Positions 25,809 to 33,028 of a stretch of DNA of 33,028 nucleotides are shown piece after piece. A program made the position numbers and the translations under genes. Under the pieces are notes generated by a model. It saw only the letters and a program-made list of their open reading frames with translations. It was not told where the DNA came from and made no database searches. This DNA is from Chloroflexia bacterium (GTDB lineage: Bacteria; Chloroflexota; Chloroflexia; Thermomicrobiales; UBA6265), in assembly GCA_013697005.1 (NCBI GenBank), contig JACCXM010000278.1, forward strand, positions 1 through 33,028. Direction: 5' to 3'. The stretch's first letter is position 1, and every line of letters begins with the position of its first letter.

Positions 25809-26684
25809 CTACTTCTCCGCCCAGGTGATGAACGTCACGACCTGAGTTCCATCATCGAGCCGTTCCACACTGACCGTCTCCGATCCATCCAACGCGCTCA
25901 GCGCGCCGGGCATCACCGCCGGGTCGAAGAAGTTCTCGGTGCTTGCGGCTCCGTTCTGGGTCCGTGTCGGGGTACTGGCGCCGCGCGTCGTCTTTTTCGT
26001 GTTCTTGCTGCCTTTGCCTTTGCCTTTTTTCTTCTTCTTTTTCTTTTTCGGTGATCCGGCGATCGTGTTCGTTGAGTCACTATGCTGATAGATGCGTGCC
26101 AACTGCTGGAAGTCCTTGTTGATCGGCTCCAGGTTGTTGAATATCGCCGCGGTGCTATCGTTCATACAAGATTCCGTGTTGACATGGTCGAGACCGGGAG
26201 TGTGACCCAGCTCATGGCACATCGTGTGTCGGCGGGCGGCATCGCTGTTGTACTGGCCGTTGTTCGCGTTGAAGAACGAGTCGTTCATCTGCACCGTCGC
26301 GGCATCGATGTGACCACTCCGGTCGAAATAGAGCCGCGTCAGTCCCAACCAGCCCACTGGCTGCCCGTACTGCCCGTTGCACATCTGGACCGTGCCCGGT
26401 TTGGACCGGCATTCCTGGGGGGTCGTCGCCCCGCCAACGATCTGGAAGCTGACCGTGTCACCCCGGTTCCAGTCGGCGACGACGGCGCTCAGTATGCTGT
26501 TCCAGCCGCCATCGACATTGTCGCCAACCTGCAGCGTGAACGGCGTTTGCTGGCGCGCCCAATGGAATCCGCCCGAGCCCTGGAGCGCAAGCGTTGCACT
26601 TGGGGCCAGACTCGTCACCGGAGCGAACACCAGCACCGCCGCGAACGCGGCGAGCACAATCTGTTGGGTCAGTTTCCTCGTCAC
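25809..26684 (-). CDS. Secreted matrixin-like zinc metalloprotease with Lys-rich C-terminal linker
   Basis: HTMCHELGHTPGLDH = HExxHxxGxxH; signal peptide LTQQIVLAAFAAVLVFAPVTSLA; linker SPKKKKKKKKGKGKGSKNTKK; GTG start at 26684 with GGGAG SD (longest ORF to 26753). Confidence 0.8.
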   Translation of the reverse strand: MTRKLTQQIVLAAFAAVLVFAPVTSLAPSATLALQGSGGFHWARQQTPFTLQVGDNVDGGWNSILSAVVADWNRGDTVSFQIVGGATTPQECRSKPGTVQMCNGQYGQPVGWLGLTRLYFDRSGHIDAATVQMNDSFFNANNGQYNSDAARRHTMCHELGHTPGLDHVNTESCMNDSTAAIFNNLEPINKDFQQLARIYQHSDSTNTIAGSPKKKKKKKKGKGKGSKNTKKTTRGASTPTRTQNGAASTENFFDPAVMPGALSALDGSETVSVERLDDGTQVVTFITWAEK

Positions 26685-26762
26685 GCGTCGTACTCCCAGT
26701 TGCGTCCGTCGCGGATCCCGGACAGAACAAACGCGAGCACAGGGCTCGCGCACATTATGTCG

Positions 26763-27314
26763 TTATGATACCGTTCGCGGTCCGTTGCCGCCAAGCCCCA
26801 GTGGTCCCCTTCCGGGGGAGTCTGCCTTCAATGACGCCGCATCGGCGGCAATCGTTTCGCTCTCAGCCACGGGCGACATCGCCAGCGCCTGCCACACCAC
26901 CCCGCCTTGACTGATCGTGAGCAACACGGTCAGGATCGCCGAGACCACACACCACTGGCAGATCGCGCCGATGACGGCCACCTCGAGCCAGGTCAGATAC
27001 GAAGCGAACACCGTCCCTCCCAGCGCGGCAGCGAAAGCAATACTCAGCGCGGCGAACGCGAGTGATGGGCGCACCCGCGCCACGACGTTGCCGGCCAGCA
27101 CGGTCCCGTACATCGCCAGACCGAGCAGCGCCACCGGCACCGGACCCACGGTCGCGAACTCGCTCGCCTGCACCGTGTGGCAGTCGCCGAGCCCGCAAAC
27201 GAGCGCGCCCGCATCGAAATGGGTCCACGTCAGATAGGCGGACAGGATGACGCCCGCCACCACGACGGTGGTCGCGGCAATCCAGAGCGGAGAACGTGGT
27301 CGCTGGATGGTCAT
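26763..27314 (-). CDS. Vitamin K epoxide reductase (VKOR) family membrane protein
   Basis: ILSAYLTWTHFDAGALVCGLGDCHTVQASEFATVGPVPVALLGLAMYGTVL...GTVFASYLTWLEVAVIGAICQWCVVSAILTVLL; ATG follows the DsbA-like TAG directly. Confidence 0.93.
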   Translation of the reverse strand: MTIQRPRSPLWIAATTVVVAGVILSAYLTWTHFDAGALVCGLGDCHTVQASEFATVGPVPVALLGLAMYGTVLAGNVVARVRPSLAFAALSIAFAAALGGTVFASYLTWLEVAVIGAICQWCVVSAILTVLLTISQGGVVWQALAMSPVAESETIAADAASLKADSPGRGPLGLGGNGPRTVS

Positions 27315-28139
27315 CTAAGCCTGCGCCAGCGCATCATCGATTGCCTGTTTGACGGCGTTCCAGTCTTGCCACGCATCGACCTCATCACTGCCGACGAACA
27401 GCGTTGGCGTGCTGTCGATCCCCGCCGCTTGCGCCGCGGCGATCGACTGTTGGACCTGTTCCAGTTTTTCACCTCCGTCGAGGCAACTGTTGAATGCGCC
27501 GGTATCGAGTCCCAACGTCTCGGCCATCTGCTTCAGGCGCGGATCGGTGAAGCTGTTGGCGCCGCCTTGATTGAGAAACAACGTGTCATGATAGCGCCAG
27601 TATCCGTTCTGGTCGGCGGCGCAGGCCGCGGCTTCCGCGGCGCGCACGGCCTGGGGGCCGCGGAACGCATAGTCGCGATACTCGAACCGGACCGCGCCCG
27701 ATTCCACGTACTCGGCAACAATCAGGGGTTTCACCGCACGGGTGAACTCACGGCAGCCGGGTCAGGTGTAGTCTCCCCACTCGACAACCGTGACCGGAGC
27801 GTCGGCAGCACCCATCGCCATGCCGTCCACCGGTATCTCGGGGGGCATCGCCTCGGCCACCAACACCGGCGCCCCCGCGTCCTGCGGCCGGTTGACCAGG
27901 ATCAGGACGAGGGCCACGATGACCGCCGCCGCAATCGCGCCGCCAAGGAGCGTGAGCTGCTTGCGCCGGACCGCCTGCTCCTCGGCGATCTTGCGTTGGG
28001 CGCGGCCAGAGCTACGGCGCTCCGCCCTACCAGCGCGTCCTGGATCAGGACCCGGCTGGTCCTGCGATTGGGGTGGCATCGTTTGCGACATCCTCTCTTC
28101 GGGTCTCATCGACCCGCCAACCATCGTCGTCCTGAACAA
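27315..28139 (-). CDS. DsbA-like thioredoxin-fold protein, candidate selenoprotein with in-frame TGA (Sec) at 27762-27764
   Basis: Same-frame ORFs 28139-27762 and 27734-27315 join as ...APVTVVEWGDYT-[TGA]-PGCREFTRAVKPLIVAEYVESGAVRFEYRDYAFRGPQAVRAAEAAACAADQNGYWRYHDTLFLNQGG...AAGIDSTPTLFVG. TGA occupies the first Cys of CxxC. Start could be 28109, 28091 or 28079. Confidence 0.85.
27728..27764 (-). promoter_or_regulatory. Candidate bacterial SECIS element: TGA plus downstream hairpin
   Basis: UGA-CCCGGCUGCCGUGAG-UUCACC-CGUGC-GGUGAA-AC: 6 bp perfect stem (7 with a bulged A), 5 nt loop starting 22 nt after UGA with G at loop position 2. Confidence 0.6.
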
Positions 28140-30888
28140 AGATAAGCCGTGCCGCCTCCTGCTGGGAGGGATTCACGGGCGCATTGGGATCGTGGGAATG
28201 ATTGGCCGGGTTGTCGACCAGCACCCGCGCACTAACCCGGCCGTCCTCCAACCGCCGCACGTCTTCGACCCCCAGCAAGGCTACCCGTTCCGCCAGTGTC
28301 AGGGGAAGCGGAGTCTTCGCCATCGTCTCCAGCGCTCGCGTCGACCCATCCGGATAGGCGTAGCGGAGGCGATCGTCGCTGTACAGCGCCAGCCGCCGCA
28401 GGATGTCACCGGCGTTCGAACAGGCGACCAGCTCCCGCGCCGTCGCTGTGACCGCGAGGCGCGTTGCCTCGTCCGCCGCGACACCGCCGCTCTCGGTGGC
28501 GTTCGGTGGCTCATCCACGGCCGGTCCCCCCGCCAGCGCCCCGATCTCTTCCAGCGTGCGCGGTTCCACCACGCAATCCTCGGGTCCGGGAGCATCACGC
28601 GCCAGCAACGCGGTCTGCTGCAAACCTCGCACGTAGGCGATGACGTCTCGCACCTGACCGCTGTCCAGTTCTTCACCGAAACCGGGCATCTCGGTACCGT
28701 CGATACCATTCTCGATCCAGTAGGCGTAGTCGTCGTCCGAGTGCGGCAGGGCATGACCCGAGGTGAGGTCGGCCGGCGGTCTGGACAGCGACGCCGCCCC
28801 CGGCCCGTCGCCGCGGCCACCGGCGCCATGACAGAGCACACAATTCTGGGCGAAAAGCGGCTCCCCGCGCACGACCGCTGCCGGATCCGCCGCGGCCATG
28901 CTGACCGCAACCGGCGATTCGATCGCGGCAATCGCCTCGGTGGAAAGACGCGCCTGGAACAACAGCACCAGCCCGGCCACGATCGCCGCTGAGCCGAGCC
29001 CAGCGGCCTCCTTGCGAAATACCGGTGTGCCACCGGCCAGCGCAAAGCCGATACCGGCGATCCCGAGCACCAGCATCACCAGCGCGGCGATTCCGGACGG
29101 ACCGAACAGCGGTGGCGGCGGCGGAATCTGGACCGGCGCGGCATCCGCCGCGATCGAAGAGGTCGCCGTCGGCACCCAGTCCGGTTGACCCGGCATCCGC
29201 ACCGTCACCTGCATCCGCCAATCGCCGGGGAAGGCCAGCTCCGAGCCCTGCGCCTCATATCCCCCCGCGGGAGCGCTGGTCAGCGGAATGTCGATCTGCC
29301 CGGTTTGCCGCTCCGGCAGCTCCACGCGGAGGGTGGCATCCGTGATCGCGGGGTTGCGCAGATGGGCGTCATGCCCGCTCCCCAGCTCCAACCGGTAGCG
29401 ATTCTGACCGACACCGCCCGGAGAGATGATCAGCGCCCCGGATTGTCCGCCGGCATCCAGGGGAATCCTGACACTGGCGGCATCCCGCGCGATGACCTGC
29501 CGTGCCGGTGGCGTCCCGATCAGCATGCCGACGACCCCGAGCAGGAGTGTGACCACCACCGCTTCCGCCAGCAGCGCCGTCACGAAATGATTGCTCCACC
29601 CTTCCGCGCCCTCCTCCGTCACCGCTCCGCGCAGCTTGCGCGTAATGACGGCGAGATTGAATGCGCCAAGCAGGAGCAGCGGCACGATCAGAATCAGCTT
29701 CAGGAGCAGTGTCTGACCGTAGGGAGTACCCGTCAGCGCGGGCAGATTCCCGACCTGGAGCCACGCGGAGTAGAGCCCCGTGAACCCCATCACCCCCCAC
29801 GCGATCAACGCCAGCAGCGAAAATCGCGGGATCGCGCGCCCCAACACGACGCGCCGCCCCGTGGCGGTGAGATCGCGCACCGCCGGCGTCAACGCGGCCA
29901 CCAGGAAGAGCAATCCTCCCGCCCAGAGCGCCGCGCCGAGGAGGTGGATGTAGTCGAAGGCGACCGCGGTCGCCTGGCCCGCCGGCTCCGCGCCGGCGTG
30001 CGAGATCATCGAGAACGGGAACGGCAGCGCCGCACTGGCGAGCACCGCCAACAGCGTTGGGACGCGCCGCCGCCACGGCCACCACCACGCCGCGCCCAGC
30101 AGTACCGCGGCGAAAACGAGCAGAACGCCCACCCGCACCAGCCACCACGTACCGTACCGGGTCTGGCCGAGGGTGATCGTCAACCCATTGAGCAAATCTC
30201 CCGGACCCGAGATCGCCATCGCCTGCACGACCAGGGCGATGGCATTGGCGATCAGCGAGAAGGCGAACGCGCCGATCGCATAACCGCGCACCCGCCGCGT
30301 CAGTTTCGGTCCCAACTGCCACGCCGGCGAAATCGCGGGCCGGACGACGAAAAGCCAGACCGGCCAGATGGCGGCGACCGCGGCCAGACCGAGCAACGCC
30401 AACCAGCGCGCGACCGGCAGCATCCATTCCGGAACCGCGCCCGCCGCCGTCTCCGGAGCTGGCTCGGCCACCGCGCGCACATCGGCTTGCGTGCCGACCG
30501 TGAACGGCACGTACCCCTGGGCCGTGTGACCATCCACGGTCGAGAGGGTGCGCCACAACAGCGAATAGGTGCCGTTGGCGAGATCGGGCGGCATCGTGAC
30601 GGTCATCGTCCGCGGTTCTGCACCGATCGTGCTGACCGCGCCCGAGATTTCCGTTCCTGTTTGGTCGAACAGCTCCACCAGGGAATACGACGGCTCGAGC
30701 GGTTCGGTGAAGCGCAAGGTGACGACGCGCGGCGGGATTGGCAGCACCGCGCTGGCCGCGGGATCGCTGCTCTCGAGAAACGCGTGCGCCGTTGCTGGCG
30801 TCGTGGACATGCCGAACCATGCCGTCATCCACAGGATGATCAGCATGGCTCCGCGCAGGCGCGCTCGAGCGCGGGCTCGGCTCACCAT
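28045..30888 (-). CDS. CopC-CopD fusion with cytochrome c domain and C-terminal NTF2-like domain
   Basis: HAFLESSDPAASAVLPIPPRVVTLRFTEPLEPSYSLVELFD (CopC); multi-TM CopD region; GEPLFAQNCVLCHGAGGRGDGPGAASLSRPPADL...MPGFGEELDSGQVRDVIAYVRGL (cyt c, CxxCH). Confidence 0.88.
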   Translation of the reverse strand: MVSRARARARLRGAMLIILWMTAWFGMSTTPATAHAFLESSDPAASAVLPIPPRVVTLRFTEPLEPSYSLVELFDQTGTEISGAVSTIGAEPRTMTVTMPPDLANGTYSLLWRTLSTVDGHTAQGYVPFTVGTQADVRAVAEPAPETAAGAVPEWMLPVARWLALLGLAAVAAIWPVWLFVVRPAISPAWQLGPKLTRRVRGYAIGAFAFSLIANAIALVVQAMAISGPGDLLNGLTITLGQTRYGTWWLVRVGVLLVFAAVLLGAAWWWPWRRRVPTLLAVLASAALPFPFSMISHAGAEPAGQATAVAFDYIHLLGAALWAGGLLFLVAALTPAVRDLTATGRRVVLGRAIPRFSLLALIAWGVMGFTGLYSAWLQVGNLPALTGTPYGQTLLLKLILIVPLLLLGAFNLAVITRKLRGAVTEEGAEGWSNHFVTALLAEAVVVTLLLGVVGMLIGTPPARQVIARDAASVRIPLDAGGQSGALIISPGGVGQNRYRLELGSGHDAHLRNPAITDATLRVELPERQTGQIDIPLTSAPAGGYEAQGSELAFPGDWRMQVTVRMPGQPDWVPTATSSIAADAAPVQIPPPPPLFGPSGIAALVMLVLGIAGIGFALAGGTPVFRKEAAGLGSAAIVAGLVLLFQARLSTEAIAAIESPVAVSMAAADPAAVVRGEPLFAQNCVLCHGAGGRGDGPGAASLSRPPADLTSGHALPHSDDDYAYWIENGIDGTEMPGFGEELDSGQVRDVIAYVRGLQQTALLARDAPGPEDCVVEPRTLEEIGALAGGPAVDEPPNATESGGVAADEATRLAVTATARELVACSNAGDILRRLALYSDDRLRYAYPDGSTRALETMAKTPLPLTLAERVALLGVEDVRRLEDGRVSARVLVDNPANHSHDPNAPVNPSQQEAARLIFVQDDDGWRVDETRREDVANDATPIAGPAGS

Positions 30889-30920: not shown

Positions 30921-31664
30921 TCACCGTATCAGCTTTCCCGAGGGTTCGCTCTCAAGCGGGAGAGCCGCTGGCGATGCGGGCGACGCACTTGCAGGCATCG
31001 CCCCTAAGGACGTTGGCCGGCGCGAGCGAGTCAAAGCCACCGCAGCGACAATGACGCCCAGCACCCCGGCCACGATACCCGCGATGCCCAGCGCGCGCGC
31101 CGTCTCCGCCGAAGCCTGCGCGTTCGCCGTTTCGGCTTGGAGCAGCGCCAGGTCGGGTCGCGTCACGGGAAACTCGATCGCGGTCAGCGGCTCGACACTG
31201 TTGAACGTCGTTGGGCCCGAGGTAACGCTTTCGTCGACCGTCGCCTCGCCGATCGTTCCGAAGATACGGAACGTGTAATCCCCACTCGCGGTGGGCACGA
31301 ATACCGCCTCGTACGCGCCGTCTTCCACCGGCGCCAATGCCAGCTCTTTGGTTTGTCCGTCCCTGCTCACCTCCGCGTTCAGGGTCGCCGCCAGCCCTGC
31401 GACCGGCTCCGTGCCGCCGGTGGCGTACTCCTCCACGCTGAGATAGAGCGCGTTCGGCTGTCCGAGATAGGCGGGCTCGTCACGAAATCCGATCTCCATG
31501 ACATATCGCCCCTCGCCCACTTCGATATCGACGTGGGCGAGCGCGCGGTCTGCCGTGGTCAACATCGCGCCAGCGACTCCCGCCAAGGCGATCGCCAGCA
31601 AACGCCCGCGGAGAGCTGCCGGACACGTGCCAGTCCTACAGCTCTGGTGTCGCCGCCGCGTCAT
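30921..31664 (-). CDS. YtkA-like/copper-associated secreted membrane-anchored protein
   Basis: MTRRRHQSCRTGTCPAALRGRLLAIALAGVAGAMLTTADRALAHVDIEVGEGRYVMEIGFRDEPAYLGQPNALYLSVEEY...EAVFVPTASGDYTFRIFGTIGE...; GAGGAGG SD upstream of 31664; C-terminal TM. Confidence 0.65.
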   Translation of the reverse strand: MTRRRHQSCRTGTCPAALRGRLLAIALAGVAGAMLTTADRALAHVDIEVGEGRYVMEIGFRDEPAYLGQPNALYLSVEEYATGGTEPVAGLAATLNAEVSRDGQTKELALAPVEDGAYEAVFVPTASGDYTFRIFGTIGEATVDESVTSGPTTFNSVEPLTAIEFPVTRPDLALLQAETANAQASAETARALGIAGIVAGVLGVIVAAVALTRSRRPTSLGAMPASASPASPAALPLESEPSGKLIR

Positions 31665-32301
31665 GTCCGTCCTCCTCGGCGTGCTCGTGCTCGGCATCTT
31701 CGCCCTCGGCATGTTCGTGTTCGGCCTCATCAGCGCCCGCGTCACTCGGCTCGGCAATACCGCTTGCGGCAGAAACTGGCGCCAGGGCGTGCCCAATGAT
31801 GACCGTTACCAGGGTTCCGTCGCCCTCCGCCGAAAACATGGCGAACCCGACATATCCTGGCGCTCCACTCTCGGCGAGACCGGTAATCAGCGTGTCGCCC
31901 GCCATCGCCCCGCCGACGTCGCCACAGGCAATCGCCTCCATGGCCTCATCGCTCTCGTAAACCATCACCGCGTGCGGGGCGGTCACCACATCGTCGAGCG
32001 TGCCGTCGATCGGCGTCTCACTGACCATCATCTGATAGGCCGCATCCGGGTTGACCGCGGTCGGCGTCGCCACCGGCGCATTATCGAGATCGACGCTACC
32101 GCCGACGCCATTGAGGCGGACTGCCACCCCGCCCAATTGCTCGCACGTTCCTTCGTGGATTCTGGCCGGGTGGCCATGCTCCGCGTGCGCCAGCGTCGGA
32201 CTCGCGCCGAAGCACAACGCGGCCGCGCTCAGCCAGATTCCGGCCGCCCGGACAGTTCCGCTCGCCACGCGTGGCGACGTATTTTTGGCACGTTTGCGCA
32301 T
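31636..32301 (-). CDS. Secreted protein with His/Glu-rich metal-binding tail
   Basis: Signal peptide; C-terminus DEAEHEHAEGEDAEHEHAEEDGHDAAATPEL; overlaps the start of the next gene. Confidence 0.7.
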   Translation of the reverse strand: MRKRAKNTSPRVASGTVRAAGIWLSAAALCFGASPTLAHAEHGHPARIHEGTCEQLGGVAVRLNGVGGSVDLDNAPVATPTAVNPDAAYQMMVSETPIDGTLDDVVTAPHAVMVYESDEAMEAIACGDVGGAMAGDTLITGLAESGAPGYVGFAMFSAEGDGTLVTVIIGHALAPVSAASGIAEPSDAGADEAEHEHAEGEDAEHEHAEEDGHDAAATPEL

Positions 32302-32364: not shown

Positions 32365-32832
32365 TTACGCCGTGGCCGCGATTCGCCGGGGAGGAGGGAG
32401 GAGAACGCGCTGGTATAGACTCTGAGGTATCCGGCTCGCGAACCCTATTGGCGCGCGGCTCGCCGCCGCGATAACGACCGTCGTCATGGCGCCGGCCAGG
32501 AAATGCACGTCGCTCGCGGTGGGAGCCGCGTCGTGTTGCTCACCAACGTCGAGGCTCGCTAGTCCGTGTTCGCGATGCTCGCCAGCTGAGCCGGCGCCAA
32601 CCACCGGATCGAACCAGCTCGCTGCACCACCACCCGCATGCGATGGACCAGACTCGTGATGAGACGGCACGAAGTCGTGGTGATGGACCGATCCGTCGCC
32701 GGCATCGACCCACAGTTGCGCCAGCGAATGCGCATGAGCCGTTTCCGCTCCAGCCCGGTACTGCGTGGGAAGGAGGAAGAGACCCAACAGCGCCAAGCCC
32801 CAGATGAGACCCGGCCACGCTGAGCGTCGCAT
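32365..32832 (-). CDS. His-rich membrane protein, copper-cluster associated
   Basis: MRRSAWPGLIWGLALLGLFLLPTQYRAGAETAHAHSLAQLWVDAGDGSVHHHDFVPSHHESGPSHAGGG...SDVHFLAGAMTTVVIAAASRAP; ORF extends to 32973. Confidence 0.5.
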   Translation of the reverse strand: MRRSAWPGLIWGLALLGLFLLPTQYRAGAETAHAHSLAQLWVDAGDGSVHHHDFVPSHHESGPSHAGGGAASWFDPVVGAGSAGEHREHGLASLDVGEQHDAAPTASDVHFLAGAMTTVVIAAASRAPIGFASRIPQSLYQRVLLPPPRRIAATA

Positions 32833-33028
32833 GTTCGTTACAGGTCGTTGCACGGCGGACGTGATCGCTCCCCTGGATTGGGAATCGTGGCCGGGATGGC
32901 TGGCGGGTATCAGCCCCGACCGACGCCAAAAGCCTACCACGCCAGATTGCGATGTCACTGGGAGCGCAATCATGGGACGGCGACGGCGAATGAAAAAACC
33001 TGGGTCGATTCGCCCCTCGGCGAAACGC

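Follow-up and report, generated by a model that had tools for sequence, protein, structure and literature searches.

An in-frame TGA at the nucleophilic cysteine position of a Chloroflexia DsbA/BdbD-like gene is probably read as selenocysteine

The window (the whole 33,028-nucleotide stretch of Chloroflexia DNA analysed here) carries on its minus strand a DsbA/BdbD-like reading frame that runs from an ATG at 28079 to a stop at 27315, and its sole interruption is a TGA at 27762–27764. A preliminary description of this DNA had joined two open reading frames, 28139–27762 and 27734–27315, into one candidate selenoprotein gene, and its account of the junction is borne out: the two share one frame, nine codons lie between the TGA and the next GTG, the translation across the join is VVEWGDYT-U-PGCREFTRAVKP, and the downstream part contains the cis-Pro motif STPTLFVG (proline codon at 27405–27407; the T-P pair is conserved). 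The frame stood but 28139 as a start did not, being merely the first TTG of the open frame. The gene likely starts at ATG 28079, because no other start codon close to the 5' end is kept as ATG in both nearest homologues; a candidate ATG at 28091 is ATA in both. So delimited, the coding sequence (27315–28079, stop codon counted) would specify 254 residues with selenocysteine (Sec) at position 106 and Cys at position 109, forming a UPGC redox motif; the TGC for Cys109 (27753–27755) is present in all aligned copies. Pfam Thioredoxin_4 (PF13462) spans the TGA (residues 105–269 of the read-through translation, 120 bits against a cut-off of 23) and Pfam DSBA (PF01323) matches the same translation at 45 bits, giving a thioredoxin-type domain with both a [CU]xxC motif and a cis-Pro (TP) motif. 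The hydrophobic segment QLTLLGGAIAAAVIVALVLILVN (27891–27959) is a probable N-terminal membrane anchor. An AlphaFold2 model built from four sequences was too poor for use (mean pLDDT 58, below 50 in the active-site region).

The gene lies between two others on the same strand. Directly downstream, 26763–27314 encodes a VKOR-family protein (Pfam VKOR, 72.8 bits) that has both cysteine pairs, in the motifs CGLGDC and CQWC, and is a probable redox partner. Upstream, 28045–30888 encodes a single 947-residue protein in which Pfam identifies a CopC-CopD-cytochrome c fusion; this gene overlaps the 5' end of the DsbA-like one. Farther out on the minus strand are a protein predicted to be secreted (25809–26753), in which a metalloprotease-like HTMCHELGHTPGLDH motif and a stretch rich in lysine occur, and, upstream of the CopC-CopD-cytochrome c gene, three predicted proteins (30921–31796, 31636–32301 and 32365–32973); none of these four has a Pfam match.

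The TGA occupies the first Cys position of the CxxC motif, as the preliminary description had stated. Among solved structures, Bacillus BdbD (PDB 3eu3) is nearest in sequence (E 8e-20); it has Cys in its CPSC motif, and the window's Sec codon aligns with the first of these. Searching this genome and 80 relatives with stops read through, we found DsbA-like homologues in 58 of the 81 genomes. The catalytic codon, examined in 39 copies, is TGA in 13 (the window's included) and TGC or TGT in the remaining 26, with nothing else seen, which is the pattern that the preliminary description had proposed to look for; thus an in-frame UGA stands where homologues hold Cys, with conserved sequence on either side. 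Ten genomes contribute the TGA copies: this one, G001 and G002 of its genus, and G034, G036 (three copies), G045, G046, G048, G060 and G064 (two copies); the records JAHWJF01 and JAUIIK01 carry sequences identical to those of G002 and G036. Two TGA homologues from the same genus are 74% and 62% identical to the window protein, and the copy in G003, also of this genus, has Cys at the Sec codon. On a homologue tree from which this codon was omitted, the Sec/Cys label changes at least five times, and at least three of these changes are forced by well-supported branches, the bootstrap not having settled and the deep order being weak. A genome-wide reassignment of UGA is ruled out because TGA ends 13 of the 27 likely genes in the window, acting there as an ordinary stop.

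Beyond the codon itself, the Sec copies share an RNA element to which the preliminary description had made no reference. On the minus strand of the window, a SECIS-like hairpin (27730–27746; UUCACC-CGUGC-GGUGAA) pairs 27746–27741 with 27735–27730 around the loop CGUGC (27740–27736), beginning 15 nt past the UGA, with its loop 21 nt past it. Across 12 Sec copies in a gapless alignment, 90.3% of stem cells are paired and seven changes are two-sided, comprising G-C/A-U at one pair, C-G/U-A at another and U-A/A-U at a third; the covariation score was reached by 1 of 500 shuffles, and slid registers pair at 51% or less. L097, the copy from G034, was excluded from this alignment because its hairpin, with the loop CGUGU, sits 4 nt closer to the UGA. 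In 15 Cys homologues, by contrast, the same stem columns are 50% paired and the stem is absent. The hairpin bases also encode protein, making the difference between Sec and Cys copies the stronger argument. A published bacterial SECIS model asks for a loop of 3–9 nt, a stem of 4–16 bp, a distance of 16–37 nt from the UGA, a G in the first two loop positions and an energy of at most −7.5 (PMC13188914). The window hairpin has a loop of 5, a stem of 6, G in the second loop position and a distance of 21 nt, and is marginal in energy: the 40-nt fold reaches −7.9 and passes the −7.5 rule, whereas the hairpin alone, at −6.6, does not. Against shuffled sequences the 40-nt fold has no advantage; only the isolated hairpin clearly beats its shuffles.

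Decay after the TGA, which the preliminary description had named for related copies as part of a case against Sec, was not seen. The downstream sequence is intact, with dN/dS values of 0.11 against G002 and 0.36 against G001 and changes mostly at third codon positions, and to judge from these comparisons the part 3' of the TGA evolves like a coding sequence subject to purifying selection.

The same description had called for a search for the Sec machinery, and selA, selB and selD, the three protein genes expected of a genome with bacterial selenoproteins, are all in this genome. SelB (323 bits) and selD (233 bits; a contig end cuts off roughly the first 90 codons) score above their cut-offs; selA is in two contig-end pieces (237 and 209 bits), one reaching model position 221 and the other picking up at 232. 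The tRNA-Sec gene selC, with anticodon TCA, occurs in many genomes of the same family, but was not found in this assembly with Rfam, with a custom covariance model built from 15 relatives, or with three patterns covering the T-arm, the D-arm and the anticodon-to-T-arm region, the last of which recovers selC in same-genus G001. The RF01852 matches checked in this genome were called Leu, Ser or Arg tRNAs by ARAGORN, and five weak D-arm matches look like chance (a control gave six, and the only nearby tRNA was a tRNA-Asn). The analysis turned up no formate dehydrogenase carrying an internal UGA. The assembly is fragmented into 479 contigs, and both selA and selD are interrupted by contig ends; the missing selC therefore does not refute the Sec reading.

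Decoding of this UGA as Sec is strongly supported by the alternation of TGA with Cys codons, the covarying hairpin, purifying selection downstream and the presence of selA, selB and selD, in line with the initial proposal; Sec insertion itself is predicted from the sequence. We consider it very probable that 27315–28079 encodes an anchored extracytoplasmic DsbA/BdbD-like protein whose nucleophilic Cys is Sec (UPGC). On this view the hairpin would direct SelB and Sec-tRNA(Sec) to decode the UGA, and in the anchored enzyme a selenolate would stand in for the nucleophilic thiolate. Exported proteins would undergo disulfide exchange with the Sec-Cys pair, which would in turn be re-oxidised by the product of the adjoining downstream VKOR gene, a probable partner judging by gene order. 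The protein is most likely an extracytoplasmic thiol-disulfide oxidoreductase, with a predicted membrane topology. Its redox direction is probably that of an oxidase, with a smaller yet appreciable chance of a reductase.

The latter possibility takes a specific form, in which Sec is inserted but the protein, instead of forming disulfides as an oxidase, acts as a reductant in the maturation of copper proteins or cytochrome c. Such a role would fit the CopC-CopD-cytochrome c gene, which is found upstream of the dsbA-like gene in seven genomes of the family (this one counted), and the arrangement in G001 and G002, where VKOR is not adjacent and the next gene is a homologue of window 25809–26753. 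However, VKOR adjoins the dsbA-like gene here and in most homologous loci, and the nearest solved relative, BdbD, is an oxidase, whose partner BdbC is a DsbB homologue. We regard the reductant role as possible though rather unlikely.

It is also conceivable that the lineage uses Sec but that this genome has lost selC, for example by an insertion-sequence rearrangement, so that UGA would now be a stop and the gene newly dead. In most of the same-family genomes examined selC lies near recQ, usually following it, and the recQ contig of this genome is without selC and has an IS5-like transposase roughly 0.5 kb beyond recQ; together with the failure to find selC in this assembly, this arrangement is in keeping with such a loss. 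Yet selA, selB and selD are retained and the DsbA-like gene has not decayed. The recQ contig, one of the 479, ends 2.2 kb past recQ; in G022, whose RecQ is comparably short, selC comes some 2 kb later, and here the gene may therefore lie just beyond the contig end. With the assembly broken inside selA and selD as well, we judge loss of selC to be improbable. A related reading, that the genome has no canonical selC while keeping selA, selB, selD, the SECIS element and the UGA, would mean either that Sec loss is underway or that its tRNA-Sec is too divergent for the models applied, and it too seems quite improbable. It is barely credible that a Cys-type DsbA gene owes this TGA to a sequencing error or a plain nonsense mutation: the codon is one base away from TGC or TGT and the assembly is fragmented, but the identical TGA recurs in 12 other copies from nine genomes (one of them a two-contig assembly) and the hairpin is specific to TGA copies, upholding the earlier argument that a chance hit on the catalytic codon is unlikely.

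On the recQ contig itself (L118, 1688–6871 of G000:C254), the RecQ-like gene ends before the C-terminal part found in most relatives and is followed by the IS5-like transposase and an AAA/LuxR-type ORF, where relatives have selC. A relic of selC was not detected 3' of recQ, the score there falling within that of shuffles.

Returning to the Sec-containing oxidoreductase, the preliminary description had rightly placed it in a known kind of bacterial selenoprotein. The UxxC type of DsbA-like selenoprotein has been in the literature since 2005: it was reported from the Sargasso Sea (PMC1088965), then found in sequenced bacteria (PMC1794560) and included in recent catalogues (PMC9312934, PMC13188914), and the window gene is a newly recognised member of this group. 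Like the UxxC DsbA-like form (PF01323 / COG2761), it has a predicted Sec as the first residue of CxxC in a DsbA-like fold, Cys homologues, and a SECIS-like element directly downstream; unlike that form, its best Pfam match is Thioredoxin_4 and not DSBA, and it has an N-terminal anchor and a VKOR neighbour. The best NCBIfam match, for the window protein and for the Sec and Cys homologues tested, is NF041057 (Rcas_1661 family thioredoxin-like (seleno)lipoprotein), a family whose name includes selenoproteins, but the window protein scores 130.3 bits and the tested homologues also fall below the equivalog cut-off of 190 bits. In contrast to a lipoprotein of that family, the window N-terminus looks like a membrane anchor, with no lipobox Cys seen. 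BdbD differs too, having Cys at the Sec position and BdbC as its partner, while the neighbour here is VKOR. Our literature search, incomplete in coverage, found no report of this Sec-containing DsbA-like branch.

Standard annotation would split the gene into two fragments and miss its function, and at least 12 homologues in the class run the same risk. With at least five Sec/Cys switches at a single catalytic residue, one of them within a single genus, the family can be used as a compact natural comparison series, well suited to asking what selenium gives an extracytoplasmic thiol-disulfide enzyme.

This genome also encodes a second Thioredoxin_4 protein, which contains Cys, at G000:C478. Elsewhere in the sample, G036 has three different Sec-containing DsbA-like paralogues (L052, L094 and L095), one with UPHC and not UPGC. 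Very divergent Sec-containing copies (26–31% identity, tree position unsure) occur in G064 (L096 and L098) and G034 (L097), with the motifs UPYC, UGYC and UPTC.
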